DNA of 64,000 nucleotides from Dyella telluris (GTDB lineage: Bacteria > Pseudomonadota > Gammaproteobacteria > Xanthomonadales > Rhodanobacteraceae): NCBI RefSeq assembly GCF_014297575.1, contig NZ_CP060412.1, positions 4,526,001 to 4,590,000 of the forward strand, written 5' to 3'. The stretch's first letter is position 1, and each line of letters starts with the position of its first letter. Below the pieces are notes generated by a model that saw only the letters and a program-made list of their open reading frames with translations, ran no database searches and was not told the DNA's origin. Both the position numbers and the translations under genes were made by a program. Below, piece after piece: positions 38,140 through 64,000 of the stretch.

Positions 38140-40128
38140 CTACTTGCGCGTTTTACCCACAAAACCCAACGCCTTCACCCATTGGCTGTCTCTCTGCGTG
38201 GTATCGATACGCTGTCGACGGTAATGGCGTTCGGCGCGGCCTTGCACATGCGTCACCCAGCGTCTAAACCATCGGCTGCTTTGGTGTCCGCCCCGCACGA
38301 TCGCCGCGACAATCCTGCGTTCGAATGACGGCACGAAGCGGCGAAACAGTTCGTCGTCGAGACAGACGATGGCCTCGGTCGTGCCGGGGTTGCCCTGGCG
38401 CGCGCACCGACCGAACAGCTGGCGATCCACGCGGGCGGATTCGTGGAATTCGGTGAGGATCACATGCAAGCCGCCTAGGGCTTCCACCTCTGCGGCGAGC
38501 TTGATGTCCGTGCCGCGCCCGGCCATGTTGGTGGCGACGGTGATGCGTCCCGGTTGTCCGGCCAGCGCAACCGTGTCGGCTTCGCCCTGGTCCTGACGAG
38601 CGTTGAGCACGGTATGTTCCACGCCATGCTGTTCGAACAGGCGGCTTAGTTGCTCGGACGCCTCGACCGAGCGCGTACCGACAAGCACGGAGCGCCCGGT
38701 GGTCGCCATCGTCGCCGCCCTGGTGGCGACAGACTCCCATCGGCGATCACTGTGGGCATAAACTTGATCGGCCATGCGGCGGCGCCGCGAGGGCTTGTGC
38801 GTCGGAATGCGCGTGACCGGCAGGTCGTAGGCGCGCTTCACCTCGGTAGCCACTTCCTGCGCGGTGCCGGTCATGCCGCACAACAGGAGGTAGCGTCCAA
38901 AGAATCGCTGATAGGTGATCTGTGCGAGCGTTCGGCGCTGCCCGGATATCTCGCAGCCTTCCTTGCATTCGATCATCTGGTGCAGGCCGCGCTCCCAGGT
39001 GCGATCGGGCATGACGCGACCGGTGGATTCGTCGACGATCTGCACCTTGCCGTCGGCAAGGATGTAGTGCTGATCGCGAACAAAGCCATGGACGGCGGAA
39101 AGCGCCTTCTGGACGAATTCCTCGCGCCACAACGTGGACTGCCACAATCCGCCAAGCGGGCGCATGGTTTCGCGCACGTGGCGTTTGCCTTGCGGGGTGA
39201 GCCAGATGTCGCGATGCGCACCGTGAGCGTAGTGAAGACCCGGTTGCAGCGCCTGCGCCAGATCGATCGATTGCCGATAGATCTGTGGATCGAGATCGTC
39301 CGGCAAGGTCTCGGAAATGATGAGCGGCGTGCTCGCTTCGTCGATCAGTACGCTGTCGGCTTCGTCGATGATGGCAATGTGCAGGCCGCGCAGGATGGGC
39401 GGCTCGCTGGTGCGACCGCCGCCCAGCGCGCGTACGCGTTGCTGCATCAGCGACATCTCGCCGATGGCGATGCAATCCTTGAGGTAATCGAACGTGAGTT
39501 CCTTGTTGCTGACATAAGTGATGTTGGCGCGATAGGCATCACGACGCTGCGCGGCCTGCATGTCCTGCAATACCACGCCCACATCGAGGCCGAGGAACTC
39601 GAACAGCTTCTGGTTGTGTTCGGCGTCGCGCTGGGCGAGGTAGTCGTTGACGGTCACTACATGTACCGCGGCGCCCGTCAGGGCGGCAGTACACGCCGCC
39701 AGTGTCGCCGCCAGCGTCTTGCCTTCGCCCGTGGACATTTCCGCCAGGCGACCCTGCAGCAGCGTGCGTCCGGCCAGAAGCTGCACGTCGTGATGGCGCA
39801 TGCCCAGCGTGCGGCGCGAAGCTTCGCGAATGAGCGCGAAGGCGGTGGCAAGCATTGGATCGGTGAAGCCGGTAAGCCGCATGGCGCGCGTACTTTCGTG
39901 CAGCGCGGCGCGCAGGCCTTCGTCGTCCAGGGCGCGCGCAGCACCTTCCCGGGCGGCGGTGGCGGCGAGGAAGTGGCGTACTTTGCGCCGATCGAGGCGC
40001 GGCAGTTTTCCCAGCCAGCCGCGCAAGCGTTGTTCCCAGGGGGAGTGGCGCGCGTCGAGGCGTTCCAGGTAAGGACCGTCGCCCAGCAGCAGGCGCTTGC
40101 CGGCCAGCAGGGCGCGCACGTCAGACAT
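38140..40128 (-). CDS. Short SecA-like ATPase
   Basis: 662 residues against about 900 for housekeeping SecA. The motor is intact: Walker A STGEGKTL (132-139), DEAD box IIDEAD (253-258), GMTGTA (418-423), TNMAGRGTDI (533-542) and GRCARQGNPG (573-582, SecA motif VI). A shortened preprotein-binding region remains (VQIVDESTGRVMPDRTW to ECKEG). The helical wing/C-terminal zinc-binding tail of SecA are missing. Start overlaps the stop of the M50/HlyD gene by 8 bp, so it belongs to the secretion operon. Probably drives export of a dedicated substrate, perhaps the giant protein; a housekeeping SecA must be elsewhere. Confidence 0.9.
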   Translation of the reverse strand: MSDVRALLAGKRLLLGDGPYLERLDARHSPWEQRLRGWLGKLPRLDRRKVRHFLAATAAREGAARALDDEGLRAALHESTRAMRLTGFTDPMLATAFALIREASRRTLGMRHHDVQLLAGRTLLQGRLAEMSTGEGKTLAATLAACTAALTGAAVHVVTVNDYLAQRDAEHNQKLFEFLGLDVGVVLQDMQAAQRRDAYRANITYVSNKELTFDYLKDCIAIGEMSLMQQRVRALGGGRTSEPPILRGLHIAIIDEADSVLIDEASTPLIISETLPDDLDPQIYRQSIDLAQALQPGLHYAHGAHRDIWLTPQGKRHVRETMRPLGGLWQSTLWREEFVQKALSAVHGFVRDQHYILADGKVQIVDESTGRVMPDRTWERGLHQMIECKEGCEISGQRRTLAQITYQRFFGRYLLLCGMTGTAQEVATEVKRAYDLPVTRIPTHKPSRRRRMADQVYAHSDRRWESVATRAATMATTGRSVLVGTRSVEASEQLSRLFEQHGVEHTVLNARQDQGEADTVALAGQPGRITVATNMAGRGTDIKLAAEVEALGGLHVILTEFHESARVDRQLFGRCARQGNPGTTEAIVCLDDELFRRFVPSFERRIVAAIVRGGHQSSRWFRRWVTHVQGRAERHYRRQRIDTTQRDSQWVKALGFVGKTRK

Positions 40129-42265: not shown

Positions 42266-42275
42266 GGCGGCTACC

Positions 42276-44120
42276 TCACAGGCCCCAGGTCCACAGAGTC
42301 ATGCGTATCCAGTCGAACGTGGTATGCAGCAGCACCCAGCCAAGTTTGCGTTTGCCGATCTCGACCTTGCCCACGCCTTCCATGCCCGGCAGCAGCACGT
42401 TTGCGTCTTGCGCAAGGCGTGCTTCTACCCGATAGAAATTCCGGCCGTCCTGCGCAGTGGCTACGGGCATGATGCGACCCACCGTGAACGGCATGGACCG
42501 GCCCGACAGTCCATTCATTACCAGTCGGCCGTGCTGCCCCCGTTCCATTTGCGCGATGTCCCGCTCGTCCACCTGTAGGATGACGCGATAACTGTGCAGC
42601 GGCGCGACCTCGAACAGCTTCTTGCCCGCCTCCAGCGGTGTGCCGACCTGCTGGCTCAGATCGCCACTCACCACGACACCGTCGTATGGCGCCAGCACCT
42701 TGGCGCGCGCGAGTTTGTCGTCGAGCAGATCGAGCTGCGCCTGCGCCTCGCGCAGCTGCGCACTGACGACCTGGATGGCGGTGAGGTCATGGCCCGCCAT
42801 GGCCTCACGCAGCTTGTTGTCGTATTGGTCGCGCTCGCTCGACCAGCGTGCCTGCTCGACACGCAGGTCGTGATCGTCCAACTGGGCCATGGTCTGGCCC
42901 TTGCTGACCGTATCGCCAGCGCGGACGTATCCCGCGGCGAGAAAGCCCTCGTAGGGCGCCGCCACCACGCGCTGAATCTCGCCCTCGGTGACCGTCTTGG
43001 CGGATACGCGATAGTCGACCGGAACCAGGATGAGCAACGCCAGGAGCAGGGCGACGGCGGCCGAAGCTGCTTTCCATACCAGATGGCGCGGCCCGACGAT
43101 GGCGGCCAGCATGCGCTCGCCCTCGTCACGAAAGCGCTGCAACGAGCTGCGCTCGGCGTGCGTGCGTTGCGCAACGATGGGCGAAAGAAGGCCGCAAAAG
43201 GTATCCAGCCACTGGCGATCTTCCGCAGTGAAAGCCTCCGGCTGCGTTCGCTCGATGGTGAGCACGGCGATGCAGCGCGCCTGCGCCGTGACGGGAATGG
43301 AAACGACGCGTGCCGCGCCTGTGCGTTCGAGCAGAGCCGCATGAGCACGGAAATGCGCGGCGTCTTCCGTGTCGGTGCCGGTCTCCACCGTCTGTGCAAG
43401 ATCGCATGCCTCGGCCATCGCCGCGGCATAGGCCTGCACCAAAGGCGAGGCCTTCTCGAACGTGGCTGCTTCTGACAATGCTGCCAGGTTCAACTCTCCG
43501 CGATCGACCAGCGCCAAGGCCGCGCGGGAGCCGTCGAAGCGCTGCCGCAGGTCGTTGCATGCGTCGAACAGCGCTTGTTGAAAATGCTCATGACGCAGGG
43601 CGACGGCGACGGCTTCCAGCACGCCGAGGCTGCGGCGATGCGCGCTCACCGCCATGTCGTGATCGCGCTTGCCCAAGAGGTTGCTGAGCCACGCACTCGA
43701 CCAGTGCAACTCGCGCAGCAGCAGCGCCAGCGGCGCGCCAGAGGCGGGCATGGCCAGCACGACTGCTCCGCGAATCTGATCGTGTGCGGTGATGGGCGTG
43801 GCAACGTGCAGTGTTTCCTCGTCATCGGGGGATGGCTGCGCCACTACGCGGCGCTCCGTCAATGCACGCTGCACTGCCGTTCCGAGACTTGCCATCTGCG
43901 CATCCGCGGATGGCCACACGGCGATCGGAACGTAGTTCTGGCCGTCGTTGGATTCCACCAGCACCGCAGCCTGCTGCACGGACGGAAATTTTTCGCACAA
44001 CAAGATCAGCCACGCTTCGGAGAACTCGCCCGCATGACGTGCGGTGATGAAGCGTGTCCACGCATCGGCGATGGGCAGGGGCGTCGAGGTGGATTCGGGA
44101 AGGGAAGGCAGGGCGCTCAT
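42276..44120 (-). CDS. HlyD-family adaptor with N-terminal GAF-like domains
   Basis: 614 residues. The first 330 are cytoplasmic and hold two GAF-like segments (about 30-150 and 175-320, the second with ALALVDRGELNLAALS and VVSIPVTAQARCIAVLTIE). One membrane helix at about 349-368 leads to a periplasmic HlyD part: lipoyl half (VVAAPYEGFLAAGYVRAGDTV), helical hairpin (about 425-475) and return half (APYDGVVVSGDLSQQVG). It would link the inner membrane to the TolC-like channel; the GAF parts hint at control by a small ligand. ATGA overlap with the TolC-like gene. Confidence 0.88.
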   Translation of the reverse strand: MSALPSLPESTSTPLPIADAWTRFITARHAGEFSEAWLILLCEKFPSVQQAAVLVESNDGQNYVPIAVWPSADAQMASLGTAVQRALTERRVVAQPSPDDEETLHVATPITAHDQIRGAVVLAMPASGAPLALLLRELHWSSAWLSNLLGKRDHDMAVSAHRRSLGVLEAVAVALRHEHFQQALFDACNDLRQRFDGSRAALALVDRGELNLAALSEAATFEKASPLVQAYAAAMAEACDLAQTVETGTDTEDAAHFRAHAALLERTGAARVVSIPVTAQARCIAVLTIERTQPEAFTAEDRQWLDTFCGLLSPIVAQRTHAERSSLQRFRDEGERMLAAIVGPRHLVWKAASAAVALLLALLILVPVDYRVSAKTVTEGEIQRVVAAPYEGFLAAGYVRAGDTVSKGQTMAQLDDHDLRVEQARWSSERDQYDNKLREAMAGHDLTAIQVVSAQLREAQAQLDLLDDKLARAKVLAPYDGVVVSGDLSQQVGTPLEAGKKLFEVAPLHSYRVILQVDERDIAQMERGQHGRLVMNGLSGRSMPFTVGRIMPVATAQDGRNFYRVEARLAQDANVLLPGMEGVGKVEIGKRKLGWVLLHTTFDWIRMTLWTWGL

Positions 44121-45652
44121 GGCTTTGCCACTCCTGGCGAGTCGACGTGGGCCACCGCCGCGTCGCGCGTCGCCACGAAACAGTGATCAAGTTCGTCGAT
44201 GTCGGTGATGCTGAGGTCGCCGAGCGTCGACTTGAGCTTGATGTACGAGGTCAGCTGCTGGTATCGCGCGTGGCGCAGGTCGCGTCGCGAGGCGGCCATT
44301 TCCTGTTTCGCCGCCAATACATCGGCTTCGGTCTTGAGGCCACGCGAGGTGCCGTGCTCGGCGACGGATAGCGCGCGCCTTGCCGAGGCCAGCGCTGTGC
44401 GCGAAGCCTTGGCCTTGGCGAGTCCGGCGCGCCACGCAAGAAAAGCGGTCTTCACATTGAGGAAGGCCTGTCGTCGCGCGGCCTCCAGATCTTCGTTCGC
44501 CTTGTCGCGCAGCGCGATGGCTTCGGCCACCTTGGCGGACTGCGTGCCGCCGGAATAGATCGGCACGTTCAATTGCAGTCCCAACGTGAGCGTGCGAATG
44601 CGATAGCCGGACTGCCCCGGAAAGTTGCCCACGTTCTGGTCGTTGTTGCCATAGGAGGCCACGACATCCAGCGTGGGCTTGTGGCCGGCACGCTGCTTGT
44701 CCACTTCATCGTTCGCCGCGGCGACCGCACGCACGGCGGCGCTCAAGGCGGGGCTGTGGGAGTCGACGAGATTCAGCCAGGCATCCATGTCGTTACCGAC
44801 CAGATCGGGCAACTCGATGCCATCGTCCAGATAGGGCTGCTGCAGGTCGTCGGCGGTGCCGATCCATTGCTCCAGCGCTGCGAGCTTGGAAGCATGTTCA
44901 AGTTCGGCAGATGCGGCGTCTGCCGCCGCCTGCTCGTATTTGGCGCGCGCATCATCGGCCTGTGGCTCGCCATGCGAACCCAACTCAACACCGCGGCGCG
45001 CGATGTCCCATTGCGCCTGCAGCGCATCGCGCTGCGCAGCGGTGAACTCCATGCCGTCGCGCGATTCCATCAGGTCGAACCAGGCTTGCGACAGCTTTTG
45101 ATAGAGCTGCTGTTCGGTGTCCTTGAGCTGGTATTCCGCCTGACCGGTCGACTCTTCGGCCTGGTGGAGCGCGGCGACATTCGCGGCACGCCACAGCGGT
45201 TGGGTGAGGCTGATCTGGTCGGTGTTGGCGTGATAGCGGTCGTGCATCGTGCGCGTGAGATTGTCCAGCGTGTCGTAGCGACGCCGGTTGCCGTTGGTGT
45301 TCGCGGTCAGGCTGATCTGCGGAAGCATGGCGCCATAGGCCTGGCGCGTGCGTGCGCGCGACGCATCGAGATTGGCCTTGGCGGCGCGGAAGCCCGGTTC
45401 GCTGTCGTGAGCGATGTCGAACAGTTCGCCAAGCGACGTGACCGGCTCGGTGGCGCGCGCGGGCACAAGAACCAGCAGCAGAAGAAACGCCAGCCACACG
45501 CGCAACGCGCCGACCTGACGCCACTTGGAATAGCCGTCCAAATGCAATAGCCGGAACGGCCCGCCGAGCGACCTATCGGCATTGACGTAATAACCTTCGC
45601 GCAGCACCTCAAATCCCTTCGCTGTGCCCGGAGGGAGAGGTGGGTCCATCAT
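44117..45652 (-). CDS. TolC-family outer-membrane channel
   Basis: 511 residues as opened at ATG 45652; a GTG at 45607 is an alternative, since the signal peptide starts only near residue 43 (hydrophobic WLAFLLLLVLVPARA). The mature protein shows the TolC duplication: two long helical hairpins rich in A, E, Q, and barrel strands (SYGNNDQNVGNF, TLTLGLQLNVPIYSGG). PIYSGG is the typical TolC second-repeat strand. It provides the outer-membrane exit for the secretion set encoded downstream. Confidence 0.92.
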   Translation of the reverse strand: MMDPPLPPGTAKGFEVLREGYYVNADRSLGGPFRLLHLDGYSKWRQVGALRVWLAFLLLLVLVPARATEPVTSLGELFDIAHDSEPGFRAAKANLDASRARTRQAYGAMLPQISLTANTNGNRRRYDTLDNLTRTMHDRYHANTDQISLTQPLWRAANVAALHQAEESTGQAEYQLKDTEQQLYQKLSQAWFDLMESRDGMEFTAAQRDALQAQWDIARRGVELGSHGEPQADDARAKYEQAAADAASAELEHASKLAALEQWIGTADDLQQPYLDDGIELPDLVGNDMDAWLNLVDSHSPALSAAVRAVAAANDEVDKQRAGHKPTLDVVASYGNNDQNVGNFPGQSGYRIRTLTLGLQLNVPIYSGGTQSAKVAEAIALRDKANEDLEAARRQAFLNVKTAFLAWRAGLAKAKASRTALASARRALSVAEHGTSRGLKTEADVLAAKQEMAASRRDLRHARYQQLTSYIKLKSTLGDLSITDIDELDHCFVATRDAAVAHVDSPGVAKP

Positions 45653-45888
45653 GGACCCAAGGCGAACCGCACCGCGATTTGTCGCGATGCCAGCACTCGT
45701 CTAATCCGGCTTTTCCCCCTGTAGCAAAGCCATTCTGGCACCGTCTTGGGCATGCGCCAAGGGGGTGCGGCGTTCATTTTCCGCAAGAAATTGCGCGCTA
45801 GCGAGATTGCCGCAACCGGCCGATCCGCCTACCATGAACCTACGAAAGGCCAGCGCATGGCGAGCAGTCGCCAGATTCAGGGGGAGTC

Positions 45889-46203: not shown

Positions 46204-46293
46204 TGGCTGCGCGAGCGCAGCAAGCACCTTTGAAAGCAAGCTTCGTGTCGGTCGGCGAATGATGTGTCGACGAGTGCGCTGAGCGGTGCACGC

Positions 46294-47595: not shown

Positions 47596-47682
47596 GCCTT
47601 GGAAAGTCAGGGAATAAGGTACGTCACGGGGCCGGCAAGATTGCACCGGCCCATCACACAACGGCTATCGGACGATCGAAAG

Positions 47683-53700: not shown

Positions 53701-56700
53701 CACGCCGCGTACGTGTCTTCGTAGCTCCGTCCGGTAAGCCCCTTGACCAGTATCTTGAGGTCATCCATGTAGCTCCCCTCGATGATGGTCGGATTGGTGT
53801 CGGGGCCGTCCTTGAGCATCACGGAATACTCGTGATCCTCAGACACGTCATTGGTCAACTCGTCCTTGATCTGGGCGACGGGCGTGAGAGGCGCTTCGTT
53901 CATGGCGCCATTGGGAACATAGGCGGGCAAGTCGGGCCTGTTGTCGAAGAACAACACGATCTTGCCGGTGTCTTTCTGGACCACCGTAACGAAACGGGAG
54001 GGCTTGCCCGATGCATCAGTGTCGTAGACGGCGTAACGCGGATCGTTACGGTATTCAGCAGGTCGATGGCCGAGCAGCACGTAGGCAAAATTGACGCCCA
54101 CCTGGAACGAATCGAAAGCGCCCGTCGACAACCATGCACTGAACAGATTGGTCCAGCCCGGGACATCACTGAAGTTCAGCGTAGGCATGCCGCTGGCGAA
54201 GGTGGCAAACAATGCGTTGCCAGGGAAGTACTGGCCCAGCCCCTTGTCCTCCCAGACGCCGCGATCTGCGTCGAGCAACTGGCCATCGGTGAGGCGGCCG
54301 TTGCCGCCGTTGCGCAGATTCTCTCGGATCGCGCGCAGGTTGCCTGCGTCGATGTCCATGGAGAACTGGTCCAGGTTGAGGTTGTACGCGCCCGCACCCA
54401 CGGCAGCCTTGCCCAGAGCGTTGCCGATCAGGCCGCCTGCGCCAAAGAAGCCGGAATACGTGGTGATCTGTGCCTGCACCAGCAACAACGGTGCGCCAAC
54501 GCAACTGTATAGAACCATGTAGGCGCCGGCACGGTTGCCGGCGGCAAGCATGGCCTCGGCGCGTTGCAGCAGTTCTTCGGTGACTGGCTTTAGTTCGCTT
54601 TCGCTGAGCGGCCTGAAAATCATGTCATCAGGCTCGGTGCGCACATCGTAGTTCGTGGTCGGCGGTGGCGTGGCGCCGGTGACGGTCTGGAACAGGTCCA
54701 GTGCCGCCTCGGTGCGGCCCACTGTCGGGTTGTTGTTGCCAGTCGGCATGGCTTGCCCGTCCCAGCGGCCATCCACGTAAACCATATTCACCGACTGGCC
54801 GTCCGCTGGCGTACCCGCGGCCGTGTTGTAGGACGGATAACCCAGATACTTCAACCGCTGCTGCACGCGTGCCACGTCCAGCGGGTTGTTGGTCTGGCCG
54901 TTGCCCACGCCGTTGCCCGCGGAGAACGTGATGTCGGTGAAACCAGGATCGGACGTGTTCTTGAAGTCGTTGGGCTTGTAGTGGATGAGCAGCTTGAACG
55001 TGCGGTACTCGTCCACCGTTTGCCCGTTCACGCTCTTCACCTTGACGGTGAAATAGCCCATCGAGGTTTGCGCGGGCAGGTTGCCCTGCTGCAGGTCGGT
55101 GAAATCGAAGTCGGAGGCGAAATAGAACACACCCGAATCGCCGAAGCTGCTGGAGCCGATCGAATTCTGTGTCGAGTCGGACTGTACGATCTGCCAGCCG
55201 TTGGCGTATTGGTAGGCAAGCACGTGGCCGTCGTTGAACCAACCGTAGGTCATCGTGTCTTCGGTGGCGGCATTGGCGCCGGTGCCGCCGGAGAGTTGGC
55301 CCTGCACGCCGTCCATCGAGAACGCCGGATTGCCATCGACGACGATGCCCTGTGCCTGCAGCAGCGACTTCAGATCCACCTTGGTGATGTCGCCGTAGAG
55401 CTGGTTGTCCATCTCCACGGTCTGGAACGCGGGTTGCTGCGTTGGCGCCGCGCCGATGCCGTAGATCCAGCCGAACATCGATGCCGCGGTCGGGCCGTCG
55501 TAACGCGATGGCTGGATCGCTGCATTGCCCAGGTCGATGGGCGTGCTAAGGCCTGCGCCCGCGCGGTAATTGGACACGGCCGCGTTGATCAGGTCGTCCA
55601 CGTTGTTCCAGACCAGCAGCGCCTTGAAGTCGCGCGAGTAGACGCCGGGCTCCGGATTCAGTTCGTCGACGAACACATCAGCGTACAGCGTGCCGTCGTC
55701 ACCCAGTACCAGATGGTCGAAGGCGCCGCCGACGAACGGCGTGGTGGCGCCCAGGTAGCGTGGGCCACCCTGTTTACCGAACGGATCCTGGATGATGCCG
55801 ATCTTGCCGCCGATCTGCTTGCCCAGGATGTCGTCGTTGCCGTAGTGCGCGTCGTTGAAGATGAAGTTGTAGTCGGCAACCAGGGCGTAATCCACTCCCA
55901 GGTAGGTCACGATGACCACGCCGTCGGCGCGCTGGATGTTCTGCTGGAATTGCTTGTTAAGCCAGTTCGGATCGCCCGCCGCCGGCGTGAGGCTCGGTTG
56001 CGTGACCGTTGGTGTCTGGCCCAGCTTGCCATTGGCGTCCACTGGCCAGTTGATCATGATCAAGCCGTTGCTGTGGTCGAACGAATCGGCCACCACGAAC
56101 TCACCGGGACGATCGCCTGCCGCAATGTACTGCGGCCCCTTGCCGGCGAACGACGACGGCATGGAACTCAGCGGCAGCATGCGGACGGCGCCATCGGCCA
56201 GCTTGCCGTTGGCGTCGATCATGCTCAGGTCGAGCACATAGACGCTGCCGGGAGAGGCGGCGGTATTCTGGCTCACGCCGATCGGGTTAAGCGGCACGGT
56301 GATACCCAGATAGCGGCCCGCGTTCACCGCCATGCCCAGATAGCCATCTGGCGCTTGCGCGATGTCGAGGTTGAGCACCTGCTGCGTGCGCAAGAAGCCG
56401 CTGGACGAAGGGTCGATGTCGATGCGCGACAGGCGGCCCGTGCCACCGAAGCGATTGCCCTCCGCCACGTACAGCCAGTTACCGTTGACGATGAGACTGG
56501 CGATGTTGCCGGTCGGATTGGCCAGCTGGAAGGTGTATCCGATGGTCAGCGTGGTCGTATCGATCACGTAGATGCGGCCGCTGCCACCGGCCACGAATGC
56601 GAGCGACTGGTTCGCGTTGTAGACGATCTGGTTGACCTGGCTGCCCAGTAGCTGAAGTGCGCGACCTTGCTCATCCACGGTGGTCTGACGGATCAGCTCC

Positions 56701-59700
56701 AGCTGCGATTCGTTCTGGAAGTAGTTGATGCTGGTGGCGTTGGTTACCATCGCAGCATTGACCACCTGGGTCGGATCGAAGGGATTGACCGCATCGCTGC
56801 GCAGGCCGGTGGCCGGAATCACGAGTTGGCCTTGGTTATCGACCGTTTTGACAATGCGCTCTACGTAAAGCTGGAGTTGCGAAAGCAGGATGCCGCTCGG
56901 CAAAGTCACGGTGAGCGTGCCATCGGACGCCACCGTCGCGGTGAGCGCCATCCACACGAGGCCGTGATCCGGCGTGCTGGTGGGTGCAGCCAGCTCGCTG
57001 CCGCGCGGAGCCAGCCACACCTTCACCACGACATTGCCGATCGGCGTGTCATCGGAAGGCAGGAAGTTCTGGCCCTGGATGGTCATCGTGCCGGTCTTGG
57101 TGTCGAGCGTATAACCCGTCACCGCTGGCTTGTCCCATGTAATGGACGGCGGGTCGGGGAACTGCACGCTCATCACGCCGGTGCTGTCGGTGGTAATGGC
57201 CGTCGCGCGCTGATAAGAACCCGCCAGCGTGTAGTGCATGACGGTGAGCGGGCCCGCTTGCGCAAAGATATCGAGCGCCGCATTCGCCATCGTCGTGCCC
57301 GGTGCCATGGCAATCGATGCCGATGGCGCCCACAGGGCATCCCAGTTCACCGAGACCGCAGTGACCGTGGTCTGGCCCGTGCTCAGGTCGGTCTTGCTGG
57401 TAGTGACGAGGATGTCGCCACCGGCGGTGAAGCCGGAGTACGGTGGGCTGGACGTGTGCGCGAGGCCGTCTGCGCCAATCACACCGTTGTCCACCAGCCA
57501 CCAGGTGTCATGCGCGACGCCGTCCGCGTCGAGCACGATGCCCTTGCGCCAGAAATACACCTGCGTGCCGGCATTCAGCTGGGTCGGCAGGCCGGTCTGC
57601 GGATCGGTCGGGCCGGTGACGTGCAGCGCCATCTGCAAGGGCAGGGCGCTTCCATCCGGGCCGACGTCCACATGGAACGCGCCAACCACGTTGAGCAGGT
57701 CGGGCACCGGCATCGGCATGTTCAGCGACTGCGGGTCGATCGCGTTGATGGACACCGAAGTGTCCTTCGCCAGGGCACCTGGCGGCACCATCAGCAGGTT
57801 GCCCTGCGTGTCCTGCACGGAAGCTCCCGTGGCTGCGCTCACCACGGTCGGTCCGGTCGTGGGGGCTTGCACGTAGAGCAGGATGTTGCGCTGCTGGCCG
57901 CCGTGAATCACGGTGACTGTGGCGTAACCCGATGCCTTGGCGATGATCAGGCCGTCTGGCGTGATGCTGGCGATGTTGGGGTTGCTAATGAAATAGAGCG
58001 TGCCGCTGGTGGCGCTGCTGATGGCGTTGCCGCTGCTGTCGGTGACCTTGAGCTGACGCTCCCCCACCATTTCGGGCAAGTCGATAGCCTGCGGATAGAC
58101 GTCCACTTCAAAGCCGTTGCCCAGGCCCGGAGGCGTGTCGTAGGTGCTGTTGCCCACCGTCACCGCGTCGACGGCACTGATGCCGTGCGAGGACACCTCG
58201 ATCACCGCGGTACCAGCCGTGTTGCCATGGATGGTGCCGTCGCCCAGCACGCTGGCCACCGTCGAATTGCTCGATACGATCCGCACGTAGTCGGCGTCGA
58301 GTTCCACGTTGGCCTGATCGGCGAACGTGCCGATGATGTTCAGGCCCTGCGTGTCGCCATAGGCGAGGCCCGCCAGGCGCTGGATGTCGATCGCCAGCAG
58401 TTGCGCGTCGCTGACCGTCACGGTGAGCTGCACGGTCTGTCCTGCGTTGAAGCCGTCGTCGGCCTTCACGAAGATCGCCGCCGTACCGCTGAAACCCGGC
58501 TCCGGGTGGAAGACGAGCGTCTTGCCGTCCGGGCTCAGCGTGGCCGTGCCATGCGTTGCGCCAATGACGCGCCAGAACAACTCGTCGCCCTCCAGATCTT
58601 GCGCAACCGAAGACAGGCCCAGCTTCGCCGAGAGATCCTCGTGAGTGAACACGCCCGGCAGCGTCTGGGCTTGTACAGGCGCAAGGTTGGCGTGCCAGCC
58701 ATAATTGGCATAGAGCAACTGTCGATCGGCGGCATCGATCTGCCCGTCGCCATCGATGTCGCCCGCGAGGCTACCCGTCGCCTGGTCCTGAGCCCACAGC
58801 GCACTGTCGGCGCCGTCGATCACGCCGTCGCGGTTGAGATCGCCGGCGATGGACGCCGTGATGGTCGCCGTTCCGGTACCACGCACGCGCAGCAGCTTGA
58901 GGCCTGCCTCGGTGATACGGACCAGGACGGTGTGTACGCCGTTGTGCACGGTTTCGCCGAGTACTTCTCCGCCCACGATGTCCAGGCGGGACGCGGCATC
59001 GCTGAAGCTGGCCTGGATGGCGACGATGATGGCGCCGTCGGCTCCCGCCGCATGCACGGTGGAGGCAAGCTCGCTGTCGCGCACGAGGAAGCCCAGCGAC
59101 ACCGGTTGGTCGCCCGTCAGTGCACCGGTCCACTGATTCGATGTGCTGTTGCCGAGCCAGCCGGCGGCGGTGCCGAGGTTTGTGGTCAGCGTGTCGGCAT
59201 AGGGCTGGCCGTCCTCGCCGTAGCCGTAGGGCGTGCCGAGGTCGGATCCGTCGAGAGCGCGGACAAGCAGCAGGCGGCCTTGAGCGTCGTAGCGATAGGC
59301 CATCGTGCGCGCGGTACCGCTGGCATCGACGCCGCCGCTGATGCTGCTGATACGTCCCTGCGTGTCGCGCAGGAAGTCGATGCGTTCGGACGGGGTGCCG
59401 CCAACCAGCGCAATGCCCGCATCGGATACCAGCCAGCGCACGCCGTCGCCGAAGGTCACGCCGGTCAGCTTGCCGCTCACGTCCATTGCGTATTGCGTGC
59501 CATCGGGACCGGTCAACACATAGCCGGTCGGCTGCCAGGGCAGGCCGCTGACCTGGTCAAACAGGCGGCCACCGAGCAACTGCAGATGGTCGCCGCCCAA
59601 TGCCTGCAACTGCCAGCCCTGTTCGCTGGCGAACGTCGGGCTGTAGATGGTCGGTGCGCCGTTGCCCCCGGCCAGCGTCGTGGCCTGCACGCCCAGTGTG

Positions 59701-62700
59701 AAGCGCAGGTTCGCGACATCCGCAGCCACAGCCAGATTGGAAGGCATGCTCAACCAGACGCGTGCGCCCACTGTCCAGGCGACGGTACCGCCGGTGGCGG
59801 TCGTGGTGAGTTGATCCGAGGTCAGGCCAGTATCGAAACCGCGCAACGTCCAGTTGCCGAAATCGCCGCTTCCAGAGGCGTCGAAGTCGCGATTCACCGC
59901 AAAGGCGTGGCCGCCCAATTGATACGTTGCATCGGTGGCGTGTGCGTCGGTGTTGGATTTCTGCGCACTATCGATGATTACGCGCGTGTCGATCTCGCTG
60001 GTGCGACCGCTGAGATCCCACGCCGTGAGCCGCAGCTGATAGACGCCGTTGGCGAACAGTGTCGGATCGAGCACGCCCAGCGCGAGCGCGCCATCGACCG
60101 GCGTGGCATCCAGCGCCGTGTCTGTCAGTGTCTGCCAGGCGTCGGTGCCTGCGGCGGCGATCTCAAGGCGATAGCCCATCGTTTGCGCCTCGGTGAGCAA
60201 GGCGCTGAGCGAGGCAGGTGTGCTGATGGTGGGTGGTGCGGTGTTGGTCGTGCTGTTGGCCAGCGATCCGGCCCATTGCAATTGCGGCGCGCTGGCATCA
60301 GCCGGGTCGCGTACGCGGAGAATCGCATCCTTGGTGCTGGTGAACCCGTCTGCATCCGTGGCGACGACGCGCACGTCAATGAGGCCTGGCTGCGTGGGCA
60401 GCAGGCGGAAACGCCCGCTGCTGTCCATCGCCACGGTCTGCCAGTCGTCCGCGCCGATGCCGATGCCGCGCACCTGCACCACCGTGGAGCCGATCGGACT
60501 GAAACTGCTGGCGCGCACAGTGACCAGAACGCTTTGTCCGGGCACGACCGGCGTGCCGGGCACGGCATCGATCACCACGGACGGCGCGTTACCTTGTGCA
60601 TCGGCAGCAACGCGCAGTGTGAAGGTTGCCTGCGTGGAGGCCAGTCCGTCGCTGACGATGGCGGTCACGACGTAGTCGCCGGTCTGGCCAGGGCCTGGTA
60701 CCCAGTTCAATCGACCGTGTTGCGCATCGTAGGTCGCCCCTTCGGGCAAGCCCAGGAAACTGACCGCGAGCGACTGTGTCTGGCTTGCGCCATCCGGATC
60801 AAAGGCCGAGATCTCGCCTTGCGCGGCATTGGCCGCCAACACCACCGGCAGGCTGAAGTCCTGGCCCACCGTGAGGGCGTGGCTGCTCACCATCAGCTGT
60901 GGTGCGCGATTGGTGTCAAATACGCGCACCTGCACGGTCTGCGTTGTCGTCAGCACTCCATCGGTGGCTTTGAACGTAAACGTAAAGTTGCGCGACGAAC
61001 TGACGGCGTTGTCTACCGTGCCGTATCCGGGCGTCCACTCGAAGTAGCCAGTGGCGCTGTTGAAGGAAATTCCCGTGGGCGTGTTGTCGTCATAGACCAG
61101 ACTCACATGGACCGGATCGCCATCGCCGTCCAGCGTGCGCATGGTGAAGCCCAGCGTGCCGCCCTCGTTCACCAGTTGCAGCGGCATGGGAAGGATCACC
61201 GGCGCCTGGTCGACGTTGGCAACGTGCACTTCGATCACGCGCGTGAAGCTGTCCGAGCCGTCGCTGCCGGTGACCTGCACGCGATAGGTGCCCGGTGCAG
61301 TCGCGCCCAGGTTGCCGCCTTGAGCCGCGAACAGGCCCGGCGTCCAGCGCAGCGTCGCATGGCCGCCACCGCTGGGTACGTCCAGCACCATGCCGGTGGG
61401 CAGGCCGGTAGCGCTCCAGCTGATGAGGTCGGCGTCCGCATCGCGGGCAAACAGGTCCACGTTCAGCGCCTGACCTTCCGCGGTGCTGACCACTACTGGC
61501 GTGGTCGCGCTGCCGGGATCGGCGACATCTGCGCCGTTCACTTGCAAGCCCAGCAATTGCGGGGCGCTGTTGGCCGCGCGTACGATGACGCGCAAGGTGT
61601 GGCTGGTGTGGTTCGGAACAGGGTTGGCGGGATCGCTGTAACCCTGGTCGCGCGGCGGCAGGCCGCTGTCCGTCGCCGTGATGATGATGTCGTGCGGTCC
61701 TATGTCGTCCGCACCGGGTGTCCAGGTGAGGATCGCCTGCCCGTATTGCGCGAGCATGGTGAGTTGCGCACCGAGCGGCAGGTTCGACGCGAGGATCTGC
61801 AGCGCGTCCTGGTCGGCATCGGTGATATTGATCGGCAGGCTGATCGGCTGACCGGCAACGGCCACGATCTGGTCCGGCAGGCTGAACACGGGTGGCTCGG
61901 TCACGCTGCGTGCGGTGACGACAAAACTCACGGAAGTGGCGAGCACGCGCGAAGGGTCGCCATCGCCGTTGTCTCGCGCGGTGAGCGTGATGGTGTAGTC
62001 GCCGCGATCGTTATCGCCAGGTGCAAAGTGGATCGTGCCGGTCACATGGCCGCTGGCGTCCGGCGGGTTCTGCGTGAACGTTGCAAAGCGCGGCAGGCCG
62101 TCGATGGTCAGCGCGATGGGGTTGCCATCGACATCGCTGATGTCCACCGGAATATCCAGGGTCGCCCCCTTGTCGACGAAGGCATTGGTGATCGGAGCGA
62201 CGACGGGCGCCCGGTTCGTGTCCGCCACGACGATCGGAATGATGACCTGCGTGCTGGCGGGTACACCCGTGCCGTCACCGTCATCGGTGGCGATGACGGT
62301 GACGTGGTACGTGCCGGCCTGCACGTAGGTCGGCGTCCAGATGATCTCCAGCGTTTCCGGATCGAACACGGCGCCGTCCGGCAAGCCCAGCACCTGATAC
62401 GTGACGCTGGGTGCGGCGGCGCTGCCCTGGTTGGTTGCCGCGCCAGCGGGATCGAGGCGTACGCTGGGTGCGAAGTTGGGATTGTCGGGATCGAAGGCAA
62501 ACACGCTGATGCGCAGCGGCTGGCCTTCCATCGTGCTCCACTGGTTGCCGAGATTGGCATCGAAGTGCGGCGCGCCATTGGCGTTCAATACGTTGAGACG
62601 CACGATCTGCTGCGTGCTCATCACGGACTGTTTGCCGCCCGGCAACGTGTAGGTTGCGGTCAGCGTGATGGGTAGTTCATAGAGGCCGTGCTGATCGAAG

Positions 62701-64000
62701 CCGGGCGTCCAGCTGATCCAGCCGGTTTCGCTGTTGAGCTGCATGCCAGGAGGTAGCAGGGTAGTGGAATAAGCCAGCGTTACCGAGGTGCCGTCCGCTT
62801 GCTGCGATCCGCCAGGCACGCTTCCGCCGAGCTGGAAGCCAAAGGCATCGCCTTCGCGCAGTGTCTGCTCCGGCGTCGGCGTCAGTACTGGCGCCGCACA
62901 CACTTGCCGCACCACCAGATCGAAGCGTTCGCTGACCACGGTCTTGCCGTCGCTCACCGTTATGGTGACGTCACGGTAGATGCCTGCCTGGTCATAGCCC
63001 GGTGCCCAGTTGAGCACGCCGGTGCGCGCATCGAAGGATGCGCCGGCAGGCAGATTGGACATCGTCACGGTAAGCAGGTCGCCGTCGGCGTCCACCGCGC
63101 GCAGCGGCAGCGACAGCGACTCGCCCTCGCCCAGAGTGATGGTGCCCGGGCTCGCCACCGTTGGCGCGTGATTGCCGTTGGCGACGCTGATGTGCAGGGT
63201 ATGAAGCATCGATCCGCCCCGGCCATCCTGAATGCGAACGACCACAACGGTGTCCGCCATGGCGTCGCTGCCAGGCGTCCAGTTCAGCGTCGCTACGGCG
63301 TGGTAGCGGCCAAACGGGTCAAGCGTGTAAGTGTCGGGCGGAGTGATGCTGAGGCCGGCCGGGCCCTGCACGATCTGCCAATAGAACACGGTGCCATCAA
63401 CATCGGTCGCATCCAGCTGGCCTGACCACGATTGGCCGACGGTGGCGGCGTTCGGGAACGTGTCAGGCACATTGACATCGCGATCGACGACGGTGAAGTC
63501 AGGGATGAGGTTTGCCTGCGGCGCGGCATAGACGCCGTGGCCCAGGTCCGCCTTGGCCAGATCGGCCAGGCCACCTGAGCCGCCGCCCGCCGGAAGAATG
63601 GTGACGGTCTGGTCGGCGATGGTGGCGCCCACCACGAGCTTGCCACCCATGGATTGCAGCACGGATGTGAGATCGATGATCCACAGACCGGCCTGGTTTC
63701 CGCTGCCCTGAAGCGCAGCCGCAATGGCGCCGCCAAAGTACTGGCCCGGATCGAGCACGAGCATCAGCGGGCCATTGAGATCGTCGGAACCCACGTTGGT
63801 GATGCTTACGTCGTAGCTGATTGCACCGGTGGTGTGATCGGCGCGCGTGTTGCTGAAGGTGATCTTCAGCTGACTGCTCATGTTGAGCAGCGCAGTGAAG
63901 CTGGTGACAGCGTCCTGGCCCATGCGCAATTGCGTGGCGCTGCGCAGGTTGCCGCTGATCACCAACTGGTAATACGCCGCACCCAGCCCACTTACGTCCA
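47721..64000 (-). CDS. Giant modular surface/secreted protein with Ig-like and tandem-95 repeats (5' partial)
   Basis: More than 5,420 residues; the frame is open to the right edge, so the true start lies outside. From the N-terminal side: an array of Ig/cadherin-like domains starting with NxAP (about 60530-63190), a region with a YD-like YRYDAQGRLLLV (about 59290), a dockerin-like double calcium loop (58705-58852), a Big_2-like and a ZU5-like segment (about 57750-58400), a propeller-like stretch (about 55400-56660), a peptidoglycan-binding-like segment (about 54670-54890), a long unassigned part, a metzincin-type zinc motif (52341-52373), and 13 tandem-95 repeats, then a unique 90-residue tail. 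No RTX nonapeptides and no LPxTG were seen. Likely exported and attached to or released from the surface; the probable substrate of the adjacent SecA/M50/HlyD/TolC set. The gene continues in one frame for 16 kb. Confidence 0.9.
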   Translation of the reverse strand, partial: DVSGLGAAYYQLVISGNLRSATQLRMGQDAVTSFTALLNMSSQLKITFSNTRADHTTGAISYDVSITNVGSDDLNGPLMLVLDPGQYFGGAIAAALQGSGNQAGLWIIDLTSVLQSMGGKLVVGATIADQTVTILPAGGGSGGLADLAKADLGHGVYAAPQANLIPDFTVVDRDVNVPDTFPNAATVGQSWSGQLDATDVDGTVFYWQIVQGPAGLSITPPDTYTLDPFGRYHAVATLNWTPGSDAMADTVVVVRIQDGRGGSMLHTLHISVANGNHAPTVASPGTITLGEGESLSLPLRAVDADGDLLTVTMSNLPAGASFDARTGVLNWAPGYDQAGIYRDVTITVSDGKTVVSERFDLVVRQVCAAPVLTPTPEQTLREGDAFGFQLGGSVPGGSQQADGTSVTLAYSTTLLPPGMQLNSETGWISWTPGFDQHGLYELPITLTATYTLPGGKQSVMSTQQIVRLNVLNANGAPHFDANLGNQWSTMEGQPLRISVFAFDPDNPNFAPSVRLDPAGAATNQGSAAAPSVTYQVLGLPDGAVFDPETLEIIWTPTYVQAGTYHVTVIATDDGDGTGVPASTQVIIPIVVADTNRAPVVAPITNAFVDKGATLDIPVDISDVDGNPIALTIDGLPRFATFTQNPPDASGHVTGTIHFAPGDNDRGDYTITLTARDNGDGDPSRVLATSVSFVVTARSVTEPPVFSLPDQIVAVAGQPISLPINITDADQDALQILASNLPLGAQLTMLAQYGQAILTWTPGADDIGPHDIIITATDSGLPPRDQGYSDPANPVPNHTSHTLRVIVRAANSAPQLLGLQVNGADVADPGSATTPVVVSTAEGQALNVDLFARDADADLISWSATGLPTGMVLDVPSGGGHATLRWTPGLFAAQGGNLGATAPGTYRVQVTGSDGSDSFTRVIEVHVANVDQAPVILPMPLQLVNEGGTLGFTMRTLDGDGDPVHVSLVYDDNTPTGISFNSATGYFEWTPGYGTVDNAVSSSRNFTFTFKATDGVLTTTQTVQVRVFDTNRAPQLMVSSHALTVGQDFSLPVVLAANAAQGEISAFDPDGASQTQSLAVSFLGLPEGATYDAQHGRLNWVPGPGQTGDYVVTAIVSDGLASTQATFTLRVAADAQGNAPSVVIDAVPGTPVVPGQSVLVTVRASSFSPIGSTVVQVRGIGIGADDWQTVAMDSSGRFRLLPTQPGLIDVRVVATDADGFTSTKDAILRVRDPADASAPQLQWAGSLANSTTNTAPPTISTPASLSALLTEAQTMGYRLEIAAAGTDAWQTLTDTALDATPVDGALALGVLDPTLFANGVYQLRLTAWDLSGRTSEIDTRVIIDSAQKSNTDAHATDATYQLGGHAFAVNRDFDASGSGDFGNWTLRGFDTGLTSDQLTTTATGGTVAWTVGARVWLSMPSNLAVAADVANLRFTLGVQATTLAGGNGAPTIYSPTFASEQGWQLQALGGDHLQLLGGRLFDQVSGLPWQPTGYVLTGPDGTQYAMDVSGKLTGVTFGDGVRWLVSDAGIALVGGTPSERIDFLRDTQGRISSISGGVDASGTARTMAYRYDAQGRLLLVRALDGSDLGTPYGYGEDGQPYADTLTTNLGTAAGWLGNSTSNQWTGALTGDQPVSLGFLVRDSELASTVHAAGADGAIIVAIQASFSDAASRLDIVGGEVLGETVHNGVHTVLVRITEAGLKLLRVRGTGTATITASIAGDLNRDGVIDGADSALWAQDQATGSLAGDIDGDGQIDAADRQLLYANYGWHANLAPVQAQTLPGVFTHEDLSAKLGLSSVAQDLEGDELFWRVIGATHGTATLSPDGKTLVFHPEPGFSGTAAIFVKADDGFNAGQTVQLTVTVSDAQLLAIDIQRLAGLAYGDTQGLNIIGTFADQANVELDADYVRIVSSNSTVASVLGDGTIHGNTAGTAVIEVSSHGISAVDAVTVGNSTYDTPPGLGNGFEVDVYPQAIDLPEMVGERQLKVTDSSGNAISSATSGTLYFISNPNIASITPDGLIIAKASGYATVTVIHGGQQRNILLYVQAPTTGPTVVSAATGASVQDTQGNLLMVPPGALAKDTSVSINAIDPQSLNMPMPVPDLLNVVGAFHVDVGPDGSALPLQMALHVTGPTDPQTGLPTQLNAGTQVYFWRKGIVLDADGVAHDTWWLVDNGVIGADGLAHTSSPPYSGFTAGGDILVTTSKTDLSTGQTTVTAVSVNWDALWAPSASIAMAPGTTMANAALDIFAQAGPLTVMHYTLAGSYQRATAITTDSTGVMSVQFPDPPSITWDKPAVTGYTLDTKTGTMTIQGQNFLPSDDTPIGNVVVKVWLAPRGSELAAPTSTPDHGLVWMALTATVASDGTLTVTLPSGILLSQLQLYVERIVKTVDNQGQLVIPATGLRSDAVNPFDPTQVVNAAMVTNATSINYFQNESQLELIRQTTVDEQGRALQLLGSQVNQIVYNANQSLAFVAGGSGRIYVIDTTTLTIGYTFQLANPTGNIASLIVNGNWLYVAEGNRFGGTGRLSRIDIDPSSSGFLRTQQVLNLDIAQAPDGYLGMAVNAGRYLGITVPLNPIGVSQNTAASPGSVYVLDLSMIDANGKLADGAVRMLPLSSMPSSFAGKGPQYIAAGDRPGEFVVADSFDHSNGLIMINWPVDANGKLGQTPTVTQPSLTPAAGDPNWLNKQFQQNIQRADGVVIVTYLGVDYALVADYNFIFNDAHYGNDDILGKQIGGKIGIIQDPFGKQGGPRYLGATTPFVGGAFDHLVLGDDGTLYADVFVDELNPEPGVYSRDFKALLVWNNVDDLINAAVSNYRAGAGLSTPIDLGNAAIQPSRYDGPTAASMFGWIYGIGAAPTQQPAFQTVEMDNQLYGDITKVDLKSLLQAQGIVVDGNPAFSMDGVQGQLSGGTGANAATEDTMTYGWFNDGHVLAYQYANGWQIVQSDSTQNSIGSSSFGDSGVFYFASDFDFTDLQQGNLPAQTSMGYFTVKVKSVNGQTVDEYRTFKLLIHYKPNDFKNTSDPGFTDITFSAGNGVGNGQTNNPLDVARVQQRLKYLGYPSYNTAAGTPADGQSVNMVYVDGRWDGQAMPTGNNNPTVGRTEAALDLFQTVTGATPPPTTNYDVRTEPDDMIFRPLSESELKPVTEELLQRAEAMLAAGNRAGAYMVLYSCVGAPLLLVQAQITTYSGFFGAGGLIGNALGKAAVGAGAYNLNLDQFSMDIDAGNLRAIRENLRNGGNGRLTDGQLLDADRGVWEDKGLGQYFPGNALFATFASGMPTLNFSDVPGWTNLFSAWLSTGAFDSFQVGVNFAYVLLGHRPAEYRNDPRYAVYDTDASGKPSRFVTVVQKDTGKIVLFFDNRPDLPAYVPNGAMNEAPLTPVAQIKDELTNDVSEDHEYSVMLKDGPDTNPTIIEGSYMDDLKILVKGLTGRSYEDTYAAWAAAYASAVHPEAPQAPNIILWARAMIDQFVGADHQLATDARTPGSDPIYTNKVEPTLDPSKASDRTGYISAKPNDPTLQWLNSGLVSRWRELTNDDYYTVVGGSGNDSRFASGWVADTIENAAKAAQSYLGNSSKMSVLQASDDGWSYTKPAQPQGTLPTTITDHTLEYTDGREFDILFDSSLQSYDYRTYNWLGAPDMNAVGNGLRAIQLATGNDLAPQINYIMGISNLSQAEKVAIVDVICLRLAAGTQWNGAYLGDNRPGYRNSYVVAVLGMIRLNIAGVADSDPHSAAYGIHDINPMAGYAGMIHIKLKPKTLPEHQDALVTGGTPAPGTAASTASATQAATVLAQAATEWGLTAADLATLGITGTPSATISAMTGNSLGLTQDGSISLDDDGAGYGWYTNADPLSNDDFLPTSDPNVWTAKPGSAADGKIDLLTVVLHEYGHLLGLKDSGTDNLMALDLAPGVRRLPSPELLQAVRQVIAARLAQVAQAIADGQTVVTTPIMEAGNAPGGASNGVAAPHSTLESGSLQDGSGWSTTGTVLIGQGTAELDESANTQTRLSQAFMVGANDRFLRFTIHSASLQNPGDMPEDAFEAALLDAVTGASLGGAINLSHTDSLLNLQGDGRSYIAQGVSFVTNADGSRTYLVDLRGIAAGTAVNLSFDLIGFGPAGSHVTISDVAMMGLPQANDDIAIGKEDSTLNVNVLGNDVNAIGSTPTVVQGPAHGTLTLNADGSFTYVPDALFYGDDVFSYALDNGKAQSNVATVHLAVTHVNHAPDAQNLTVQLQEDGTALVDLRPLASDVDGDALAFRIVDQPQHGTLTDNGDGTYTYVPGPLFYGDDTFTYVANDGTADSPVATVSLVVIHVNHAPEAHDATLQTQEDQSVTGRLDQFSTDVDGDALQSALVASPQHGTLVFNADGSFTYTPSALFHGDDSFSYQVTDGQTLSGIATVTIHVAAVNHAPTASDASAMLAEETTLLLDPRTQTSDIDGDALETVIVSGPQHGVLTRNADGSFRYVPDALFHGTDSFTYKVSDGTLESNAATFTLTVTPVNHAPTAANASASVAEDGSLVIDPRTDADDVDGDALTTVIVSGPAHGQLQQNADGSFTYVPDALYRGSDSFSYKVSDGTAESGVATITLTVTPVNHAPVAHDGTATVSEDGSAAIDPRSLASDVDGDPLSVVIVSGPAHGTLVRNADGSFTYTPSALYAGGDSFSYKVNDGVADSTVATMVLTVTPVNHAATAVNDTAATDQGQPVIINVLANDSDIDNSTGLNAGSGRAPNAGLTARVVSQPAHGSVSINADGTLTYIPDAAFSGVDSFSYVANDGQVDSALASVTITVRATNHAPVANDDVFTGAQGQAIRFNPLFNDSDADGDALSTVIVNGPQHGVLTRNADGSLTYTPTNGWSGTDEITYEASDGKTVSNVATVRLVITPTNQAPVAKDDRASIHNNQTATINVLANDTDADGDALTSRLVTGAKHGTVTRNADGSFSYTANGGYTGTDTFTYVANDGHSDSNVATVTISVLGPNLPPIAFDDVAYANENGAVKINPASNDWDLDGDKLSADVLCGPAHGTLAMNADGTFTYTPDTNWYGVDAFTYAAFDGQFHSNPAVVWINVAHVNQAPVANSDAATTHTGQSVRIDVLANDIDVDGDSLSAKITANPTNGTLVRNWDGTFSYTPRAGFVGTDTFTYVANDGRLNSAPATVTVTVLAPNHAPIARDDQATTTVNTAVNINVLVNDTDADGDALSPKLVCGTSHGTLKLNADGTFTYTPAKGWYGTDAFSYRVNDGTVDSGVATVCITVAPVNHAPTARNASFQVQKDGSVCIDFGCLVDDIDDDCLTISVGKPGQGTLSRNWDGTYTYRPKSGFLGTDAFTYTVSDGKLSAAGTVTLNVVRSGAGCYGLTSLSVVAGAASNAVADYAQYIVVMRAGAESGTQASVDWDGTDTASIGNSSNVGGVWWNTLVSPANGSDDDLATKTGLSVRLLN
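47998..51640 (-). repeat. Thirteen tandem-95-type repeats in the giant protein
   Basis: About 280 bp per unit. Each opens with a variant of VNHAPxA, followed by DVDGDAL, HGTL, NADGSFTY, and DSFxYxVxDG. This is the Big_17/cadherin-like tandem-95 unit, a calcium-linked Ig-like fold typical of giant adhesins. Neighbouring copies differ modestly, so expansion by recombination within the gene is likely. Confidence 0.9.
52341..52373 (-). other. Metzincin-type zinc-binding motif in the giant protein
   Basis: The motif HEYGHLLGLKD has the HExxHxxGxxD pattern with aspartate as third ligand, and a methionine follows in NLMALDL as a possible Met-turn. It suggests an M10-like zincin domain directly before the tandem-95 array. 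Possible roles are self-cleavage or attack on other surface proteins. Confidence 0.7.
58705..58852 (-). other. Dockerin-like double calcium-binding module in the giant protein
   Basis: Two EF-like loops, DLNRDGVIDGAD and DIDGDGQIDAAD, about 30 residues apart, the spacing of a type I dockerin. In cellulosomes these bind cohesin domains; no cohesin was seen in this window. Confidence 0.8.
60530..63190 (-). repeat. Array of N-terminal Ig/cadherin-like domains in the giant protein
   Basis: About eight or nine domains of roughly 90-100 residues, each starting near an N-x-A-P or equivalent (NHAPTVASPG, NRAPVVAPITN, NSAPQLLG, NRAPQLMVSS) with inner patterns DADGD and WTPG. They resemble the putative-Ig He_PIG family and differ clearly from the C-terminal tandem-95 units. 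Confidence 0.75.

Follow-up and report, generated by a model that had tools for sequence, protein, structure and literature searches.

The closest described counterpart of the locus studied here was reported by Kamneva, Poudel and Ward (2015, PLoS One, PMC4452313), whose main text describes 'secondary SecA_DEAD' proteins lacking all or most of the wing-scaffold, whose genes share a conserved neighbourhood with genes for M50, GAF-HlyD and HlyD proteins across several phyla including Planctomycetes. The missing ABC transporter was already noted there, SecA was proposed to act as ATPase and M50 to form the pore, and the broader role of the locus was termed completely unknown; the terms LEPR, giant and PqqD are absent from that main text. 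We analysed a 64,000-nucleotide stretch of the Dyella telluris genome (contig NZ_CP060412.1, positions 4,526,001 to 4,590,000; hereafter the window), which carries a locus of this type beside the gene of a giant protein. The two have in common a short SecA_DEAD protein, a weak Peptidase_M50 match, GAF-HlyD and HlyD/biotin_lipoyl proteins, sometimes OEP, and no ABC transporter, with the short HlyD lying here upstream of the giant gene and not beside the SecA-like gene. A preliminary description of the window had held that no described system joins HlyD/M50 with a SecA paralogue; this was wrong given PMC4452313, and the gene set can no longer be regarded as undescribed. The 2015 account names no cargo; the present analysis contributes a class of cargo with its N-terminal motif, a PqqD-like domain and the conservation of the protease site. 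No paper linking LEPR-XLL or PF07595 to the SecA/M50-HlyD locus was found in the literature searched, most subscription journals and bioRxiv lying outside it. Hence the gene set is known, while LEPR-XLL giants as its cargo appear to be new within that literature.

Other described systems resemble parts of the locus. Classical type I secretion (HlyBD-TolC) likewise combines an HlyD adaptor and a TolC duct with giant repeat cargo without a Sec signal, LapBCE being a type I system for giant adhesins. In contrast, the set described here has no ABC ATPase, a motor of the SecA type, a conserved motif at the cargo N-terminus, and extra M50, PqqD-like and GAF domains. The Gram-positive accessory Sec system (SecA2) also has a second SecA motor besides the housekeeping SecA, but the protein studied here is cut before the wing, finger and tail, and its operon partners are HlyD/M50/TolC proteins. 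C39 exporters (peptidase-containing ABC transporters, PCAT) and the leader peptidases of ribosomally synthesised and post-translationally modified peptides (RiPPs; daptide M50) tie leader-reading domains, similar to PqqD or RiPP recognition elements (RRE), and protease domains to an exporter. They differ in that the cargo here would be thousands of residues long rather than a small peptide, and the presumed cleavage would be due to a protease of the intramembrane metalloprotease type.

We conclude that the operon in the window is probably a trans-envelope exporter that carries the giant encoded beside it and LEPR-XLL proteins in general. In support of this, LEPR-XLL proteins co-occur with, and often adjoin, M50-HlyD, both the M50 site and the SecA motifs are conserved, and the set includes no ABC exporter. 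The components are as follows.

44117..45652, minus strand: TolC-type channel of the outer membrane, 511 aa if read from the first ATG, the real start being possibly more internal (OEP 179 bits; TIGR01844 235 bits, above cut-off)
42276..44120, minus strand: GAF-domain HlyD adaptor, 614 aa (Pfam GAF and HlyD_3)
40121..42265, minus strand: M50-HlyD fusion, 714 aa (Pfam on relatives, profile search, predicted structure)
38140..40128, minus strand: short SecA-like ATPase, 662 aa (Pfam and NCBIfam, alignment, AlphaFold2 model)
47721..64000 (window share), minus strand: C-terminal part of the giant protein, ~5,425 codons (open reading frame, ORF, continued into flanking DNA)
C1:4612129-4612998: short HlyD adaptor, 289 residues, just upstream of the giant gene

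The first four genes form a minus-strand operon running from 45652 to 38140 in the order TolC, GAF-HlyD, PqqD/M50/HlyD, SecA-like. Counted from the SecA-like end, they are separated by an 8-base overlap, a 10-base gap and a 4-base overlap, so that the tight operon of the preliminary description is confirmed with spacings of at most 10 bases. The ORF list and Pfam matches of the window place no ABC gene in the operon, again as described previously; the ABC exporter gene at 32231-34006 lies on the opposite strand. HlyD domains score above cut-off in the GAF-HlyD and short HlyD proteins, and the M50-HlyD model contains an adaptor fold. Four relatives have the same operon beside a giant, and these giants are homologous at one end.

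The giant gene is a single uninterrupted frame of 12,757 residues (C1:4573721-4611994, reaching 85994 in window numbering). The upstream protein of more than 5,400 residues noted previously therefore exists, but its size had been put too low, the full ORF having 12,757 codons. A Pfam scan of all but ~430 of these residues revealed 14 CARDB stretches, PPC, four He_PIG stretches and, nearer the C-terminus, ~15 cadherin/Big_9 repeats, and because of this domain content the giant looks like an adhesin or matrix protein. Residues 41-59 match the LEPR-XLL motif NF012209 with 34.3 bits against a curated cut-off of 17; both this motif and the CARDB stretches are encoded in the flanking DNA outside the window. 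No Sec-like hydrophobic segment was found at the N-terminus of the giant. In 30 LEPR N-termini, taken from 30 of the 31 positive genomes of the class sample below, the core typically reads FExLEPRxLLSAD and follows a short, often basic stretch. The most hydrophobic 12-residue stretch scores 0.88-2.35 in these N-termini (24/30 below 1.6, a line set in this analysis), compared to 3.26 for the TolC and 2.74 for the RCC1 protein of this locus. RTX repeats are frequent, though not universal, in type I cargo. A Vibrio LEPR-XLL giant has been reported with an RTX domain (PMC10868602), while one RTX-like repeat pattern gave 0 matches in the window's giant. Tandem LEPR frames of 13,848 and 3,186 codons were observed just upstream of the operon at G108:C1:429854-486191, and several other genomes have two to five LEPR matches each.

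The assignment of LEPR-XLL giants as cargo is well supported by co-occurrence and gene neighbourhood. Among 227 genomes of the window's own family, 14 have a close M50-HlyD (at least 384 bits) and 21 have distant kin only (at most 177 bits). LEPR-XLL was detected in 12/14 genomes with a close M50-HlyD vs 0/213 without (Fisher p 3e-18), and in all 12 the LEPR frame is on the M50-HlyD contig at a gap of ~3-8 kb. The two genomes with a close M50-HlyD and no LEPR-XLL are assemblies of 460 and 510 contigs. The window's genus contributes 20 genomes to this sample, two with both features and 18 with neither close M50-HlyD nor LEPR-XLL.

A class sample of 370 genomes gave LEPR-XLL in 24/30 with close M50-HlyD vs 7/340 without (p 4e-26), where close means at least 300 bits, a cut chosen after seeing the score gap (332 bits, next 241). 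Each feature occurs in 22 families, 18 of which are common to both. The two share a contig in 14 of the 24 double positives (13 within 5.5 kb, one at 13 kb) and are on different contigs in the other 10; some M50-HlyD at E 1e-10 is present in 29/31 LEPR genomes. Six genomes have a close M50-HlyD without an NF012209 match, and in five of these a weaker motif, recognised by our own model or pattern with no curated cut-off, lies beside the operon.

A scan of GTDB contigs with an 18-row M50-HlyD alignment returned at least 588 relatives, of which the best 80, i.e. the closest matches to the query, were kept as named loci. LEPR-XLL scored above cut-off in 45 of the 48 genomes behind 50 of these loci (47 with contigs of at least 40 kb plus three), or in 40/43 after excluding five that by their coordinates are also in the family sample. 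By record title, the positives comprise Alpha-, Beta- and Gammaproteobacteria, Desulfobulbaceae and one Omnitrophota genome. LEPR-XLL was missed at L181, at L196 (Rokubacteria) and at L214, where a weak motif lies 1 kb from the SecA-like gene. A LEPR frame lies within 15 kb of M50-HlyD in 16/48 with an identical contig number, or in 38/48 by coordinates alone, contig identity being unchecked in that count. LEPR-XLL was found in 0/14 well-known control genomes. An alphaproteobacterial class sample of 289 genomes has it in two, the seed and G536, which carries a distant M50-HlyD. A phylum sample of 14 genomes around the Omnitrophota genome was left unused as a test because the seed alone has the machine. 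In a co-occurrence survey of the kind proposed in the preliminary description, LEPR-XLL giants thus track close M50-HlyD in the family, class and named-locus samples. The gene association is real, not chance.

The best 80 named loci include a GAF-HlyD homologue in 76, a SecA-like gene after M50-HlyD in 75 and a short HlyD in 43. Five lack the SecA-like gene, three of them ending at a contig edge and two having a LEPR ORF nearby instead. The SecA-like gene adjoins close M50-HlyD in 21/35 class regions, and in others it is elsewhere in the genome.

The SecA-like protein scores 329 bits with SecA_DEAD, 81 bits with SecA_PP_bind and 169 bits with P-loop_SecA, and falls below all four NCBIfam SecA2 cut-offs (e.g. 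453 of 930 bits). It keeps nucleotide-binding domain 1, the preprotein cross-linking domain (PPXD) and nucleotide-binding domain 2 but breaks off near the beginning of the scaffold helix, so that wing, two-helix finger and C-tail are missing. Beyond the aligned part, the genome's housekeeping SecA continues for at least 269 residues and the SecA-like protein for 16; the AlphaFold2 model of the latter (predicted local distance difference test score, pLDDT, 82.9) terminates in one long helix. Superposed on SecA of the substrate-engaged SecA-SecY complex 6itc, the model has a template modelling (TM) score of 0.78 by query length. The motor residues G134 E135 G136 K137 and D255 E256 D258 are invariant in 33 aligned sequences. 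We searched for the protein genome-wide in 58 of the 370 class genomes: it is present, scoring at least 231 bits, in 24/30 close-M50 genomes and in 0/28 others examined, one of which (G113) has a divergent SecA-like protein at 96 bits. Because of this coverage, a Fisher test of SecA-like against LEPR was set aside. A same-genus relative has a SecA-like match with one in-frame TGA (G002:C1:398117-400033), downstream of which lies a shorter giant, a 5,351-codon frame.

The M50-HlyD protein comprises a PqqD-like N-domain (~18-102), a membrane M50 core and a periplasmic adaptor (~445-702), the adaptor domain being present in the predicted structure. Its HExxH site (H210, E211, H214) and D312 are all invariant in 48 aligned sequences, and the intact protease site suggests cutting of the leader or of the chain passing the membrane domain. 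The window protein has no HlyD or PqqD match of its own above Pfam cut-off, and the domain assignment comes from its relatives: at Pfam E <= 1, 18 aligned relatives match M50 in 18/18, HlyD_3 in 16/18 and PqqD in 12/18 cases, with a best family-member E of 6.8e-7 for PF05402 (PqqD). A 48-row profile matches PqqD 3g2b over residues 18-102 (E 0.0047), while the structural neighbours listed for residues 12-105 are GdmN chains and include no PqqD. The Foldseek/VIA-align rows cover the adaptor (445-702) and residues 12-105, with no listed match for the membrane M50 part, which is uninformative. The best named NCBIfam match is daptide_HExxH, at 128 bits (cut-off 300).

These features allow a mechanism to be proposed, in which we infer the roles of reader, motor and protease, the data presented here bearing on the cargo-machine link alone. 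The LEPR leader would stand in for a Sec signal or the uncleaved C-terminal signal of type I secretion, and LEPR-x-LL is probably the address label of the machine. PqqD-like domains are related to RiPP recognition elements and in RiPP pathways bind the leader peptide, which makes the PqqD-like domain of M50-HlyD the natural leader reader; it would capture the LEPR leader at the inner membrane. ATP-driven pushing could come from the SecA-like motor, whose PPXD clamp would hold the chain and which would thread it, unfolded, through or beside the M50 membrane domain. C39 removes the leader in peptidase-containing ABC exporters, and M50 may trim it here in like manner. The three HlyD-type proteins and TolC would provide the periplasmic duct, and the giant, once released, may serve as adhesin or matrix protein, either on the cell surface or in the medium.

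Taken together, a wider reading can be put forward tentatively, at somewhat less than an even chance. In this reading, a PqqD-like domain recognises the leader LEPRxLLSAD, an intramembrane metalloprotease to which a periplasmic adaptor is fused trims it, a wing-less SecA motor replaces the ABC ATPase, and single polypeptides of up to ~14,000 residues leave via TolC. The same logic would hold for planctomycete PF07595 proteins, and SecA-less M50-HlyD relatives would use a second dialect (LExR--FDGA). If correct, Gram-negative bacteria have put a SecA motor to use outside the classical Sec pathway, and the exit of proteins of more than 10,000 residues from the cell is explained. No cargo has accompanied the locus since its publication in 2015, and in the literature searched the LEPR-XLL and planctomycete motifs carry annotations as domain or signal but have no exporter; joining locus and motif makes both testable at once.

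Several observations weigh against this interpretation. The case for export is drawn from genomes alone, association is not export, and the genome samples are phylogenetically non-independent. TolC is near the core in just 15/80 of the best named loci. Five class genomes have LEPR-XLL with only a distant M50-HlyD, and two of the 31 class LEPR genomes (G125, G247) have no M50-HlyD at E 1e-10; no SecA of any kind was found in the G125 assembly. Among 12 genomes of the alphaproteobacterial sample with M50-HlyD of 150-366 bits, only G536 has LEPR-XLL. In G456 and G463, two of the 45 named-locus positives, the frame carrying the motif has just 86 or 145 codons. Both Peptidase_M50 (23.7 bits vs cut-off 27.2) and PqqD (14.1 bits vs 23.4, E 0.063) are below threshold in the window protein itself. 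Finally, the SecA-like protein was not found in 6/30 close-M50 genomes (G107, G140, G223, G228, G242, G361). The M50 gene runs off the contig end in G107 and G140, while G242 and G361 are listed as 99-100% complete and have LEPR giants, suggesting the motor is perhaps replaceable. The SecA-like protein is therefore usual for close M50-HlyD, and perhaps not universal. The interpretation given in the preliminary description stands in that the set has no ABC gene, that a SecA-like gene follows M50-HlyD in most named loci and that the giant is a plausible cargo, while the six genomes above count against its SecA motor.

These same genomes bear on the alternative that the machine exports LEPR proteins with M50-HlyD and the adaptors as translocase, the SecA-like protein being an optional unfoldase or coupling factor and another energy source operating where it is absent. 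LEPR ORFs lie beside M50-HlyD operons in G242, G361, G223 and G228 with no SecA-like protein found in the genome, and distant M50-HlyD loci without SecA-like genes adjoin ORFs with a related N-terminal motif. Two of these four assemblies are, however, in more than 150 contigs, the motor residues are invariant, and the SecA-like protein is present in 24/30 close-M50 genomes and at 75/80 named loci, those being closest to the query. We consider this alternative unlikely, at roughly one chance in five.

It is less probable still that the giant leaves through a conventional ABC type I system with genes elsewhere while the operon does other work, e.g. processing or regulation. The HlyD and TolC components are compatible with type I secretion, and an LssB-type ABC exporter scores above cut-off in 9/31 LEPR genomes. 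It tends to be more frequent where the SecA-like protein was not found (6/12 vs 3/19, p 0.056), which provides a lead on the driver of SecA-less versions. In contrast, 22/31 LEPR genomes including the window's have no LssB-type ABC above cut-off, in a search that used the LssB-type model, without those of HlyB and PrtD type, and covered LEPR-positive genomes only, and the one RTX pattern gave no repeat in the window's giant. Nor do homologous clusters regularly contain an ABC ATPase, which the preliminary description had named as grounds for doubt: where contigs allow, ABC-motif ORFs occur within ~10 kb in only 2/35 class regions and 4/80 named loci, all of the close type. The one at L155, directly behind the SecA-like gene, carries two ABC_tran domains, lacks a membrane domain and is ABCF-like. 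The LEPR genomes with an LssB-type ABC and no SecA-like protein found are G217, G223, G247, G309, G361 and G383.

Equally improbable is an accessory Sec route akin to SecA2, in which the SecA-like protein feeds LEPR proteins to SecYEG and HlyD/TolC carries them on from the periplasm: Gram-positive SecA2 working with SecY is a precedent, and the motor and PPXD resemble SecA of a SecA-SecY complex (TM 0.78 to 6itc), but the two-helix finger, wing and most of the scaffold, which contact SecY in known complexes, are missing, LEPR N-termini have no strong hydrophobic segment, and the gene is linked to M50-HlyD at 75/80 named loci.

The proposal that the machine recognises its cargo by the leader is further addressed by comparing 25 distant with 35 close M50-HlyD regions, the 25 having no close-type SecA-like gene (L147 has a divergent SecA-like type). 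Six of the distant regions have an ORF starting LExR-hh-D[GA]A and one has an ORF of SA type, whereas all 12 pattern ORFs in the close regions are of SA type, one reading AA (Fisher p 2.6e-4, with the 123-aa frame of L130 set aside as chance beforehand and the AA of L097 counted as SA type). Machine subtype and motif vary together, which favours direct recognition. The second dialect, LExR-[ML]FD[GA]A or LExR-VLD[GA]A, was observed beside or in the same genome as distant M50-HlyD genes lacking the close SecA-like type, at L134, L139, L140, L141, L142, L145 and L086 (in G256).

A comparable N-terminal motif has been described for cell-surface proteins of R. baltica: PF07595 (planctomycete extracellular signal), RRLxxExLExRxLLA, after Studholme et al. 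2004, is thought to be a novel export signal according to PMC8567305. Like LEPR-XLL it is an N-terminal motif, and no exporter is assigned to it in the literature examined. PF07595 matches the LEPR core in 5/10 N-termini given (E 0.0012 to 0.074) and gave no match to the window's giant. All five matches are below the Pfam cut-off (13-19 of 25.5 bits), and for this reason a relationship between the two motifs is suggested rather than demonstrated. Since the SecA locus is reported in Planctomycetes (PMC4452313), the same machine may serve LEPR-XLL and PF07595 proteins.

Between the giant gene and the TolC gene lies a further gene, the start of which was picked by eye.

46294..47595, minus strand: RCC1 beta-propeller protein with an N-terminal hydrophobic segment (Pfam WD40_RLD, RCC1)

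The ABC exporter gene at 32231-34006 was considered as a partner of the operon and rejected, being on the opposite strand and near a glycosyltransferase gene; in the five most closely related named loci, L148-L151 and L160, there are 0 ABC-motif ORFs within 10 kb of M50-HlyD. It belongs to a separate cluster (26285-34006), which may make a polysaccharide or modified peptide and comprises genes of glycosyltransferase, NTP_transf_5 (minus strand), HPr-kinase-like and MsbA/CydD-like ABC type. RCC1 homologues are found at the locus in G026, where the gene is near a partial SecA-like frame, and, in pieces, in G028. Between the TolC and RCC1 genes, the opposite (plus) strand carries a small ORF with a lipoprotein-like start (45889-46203).

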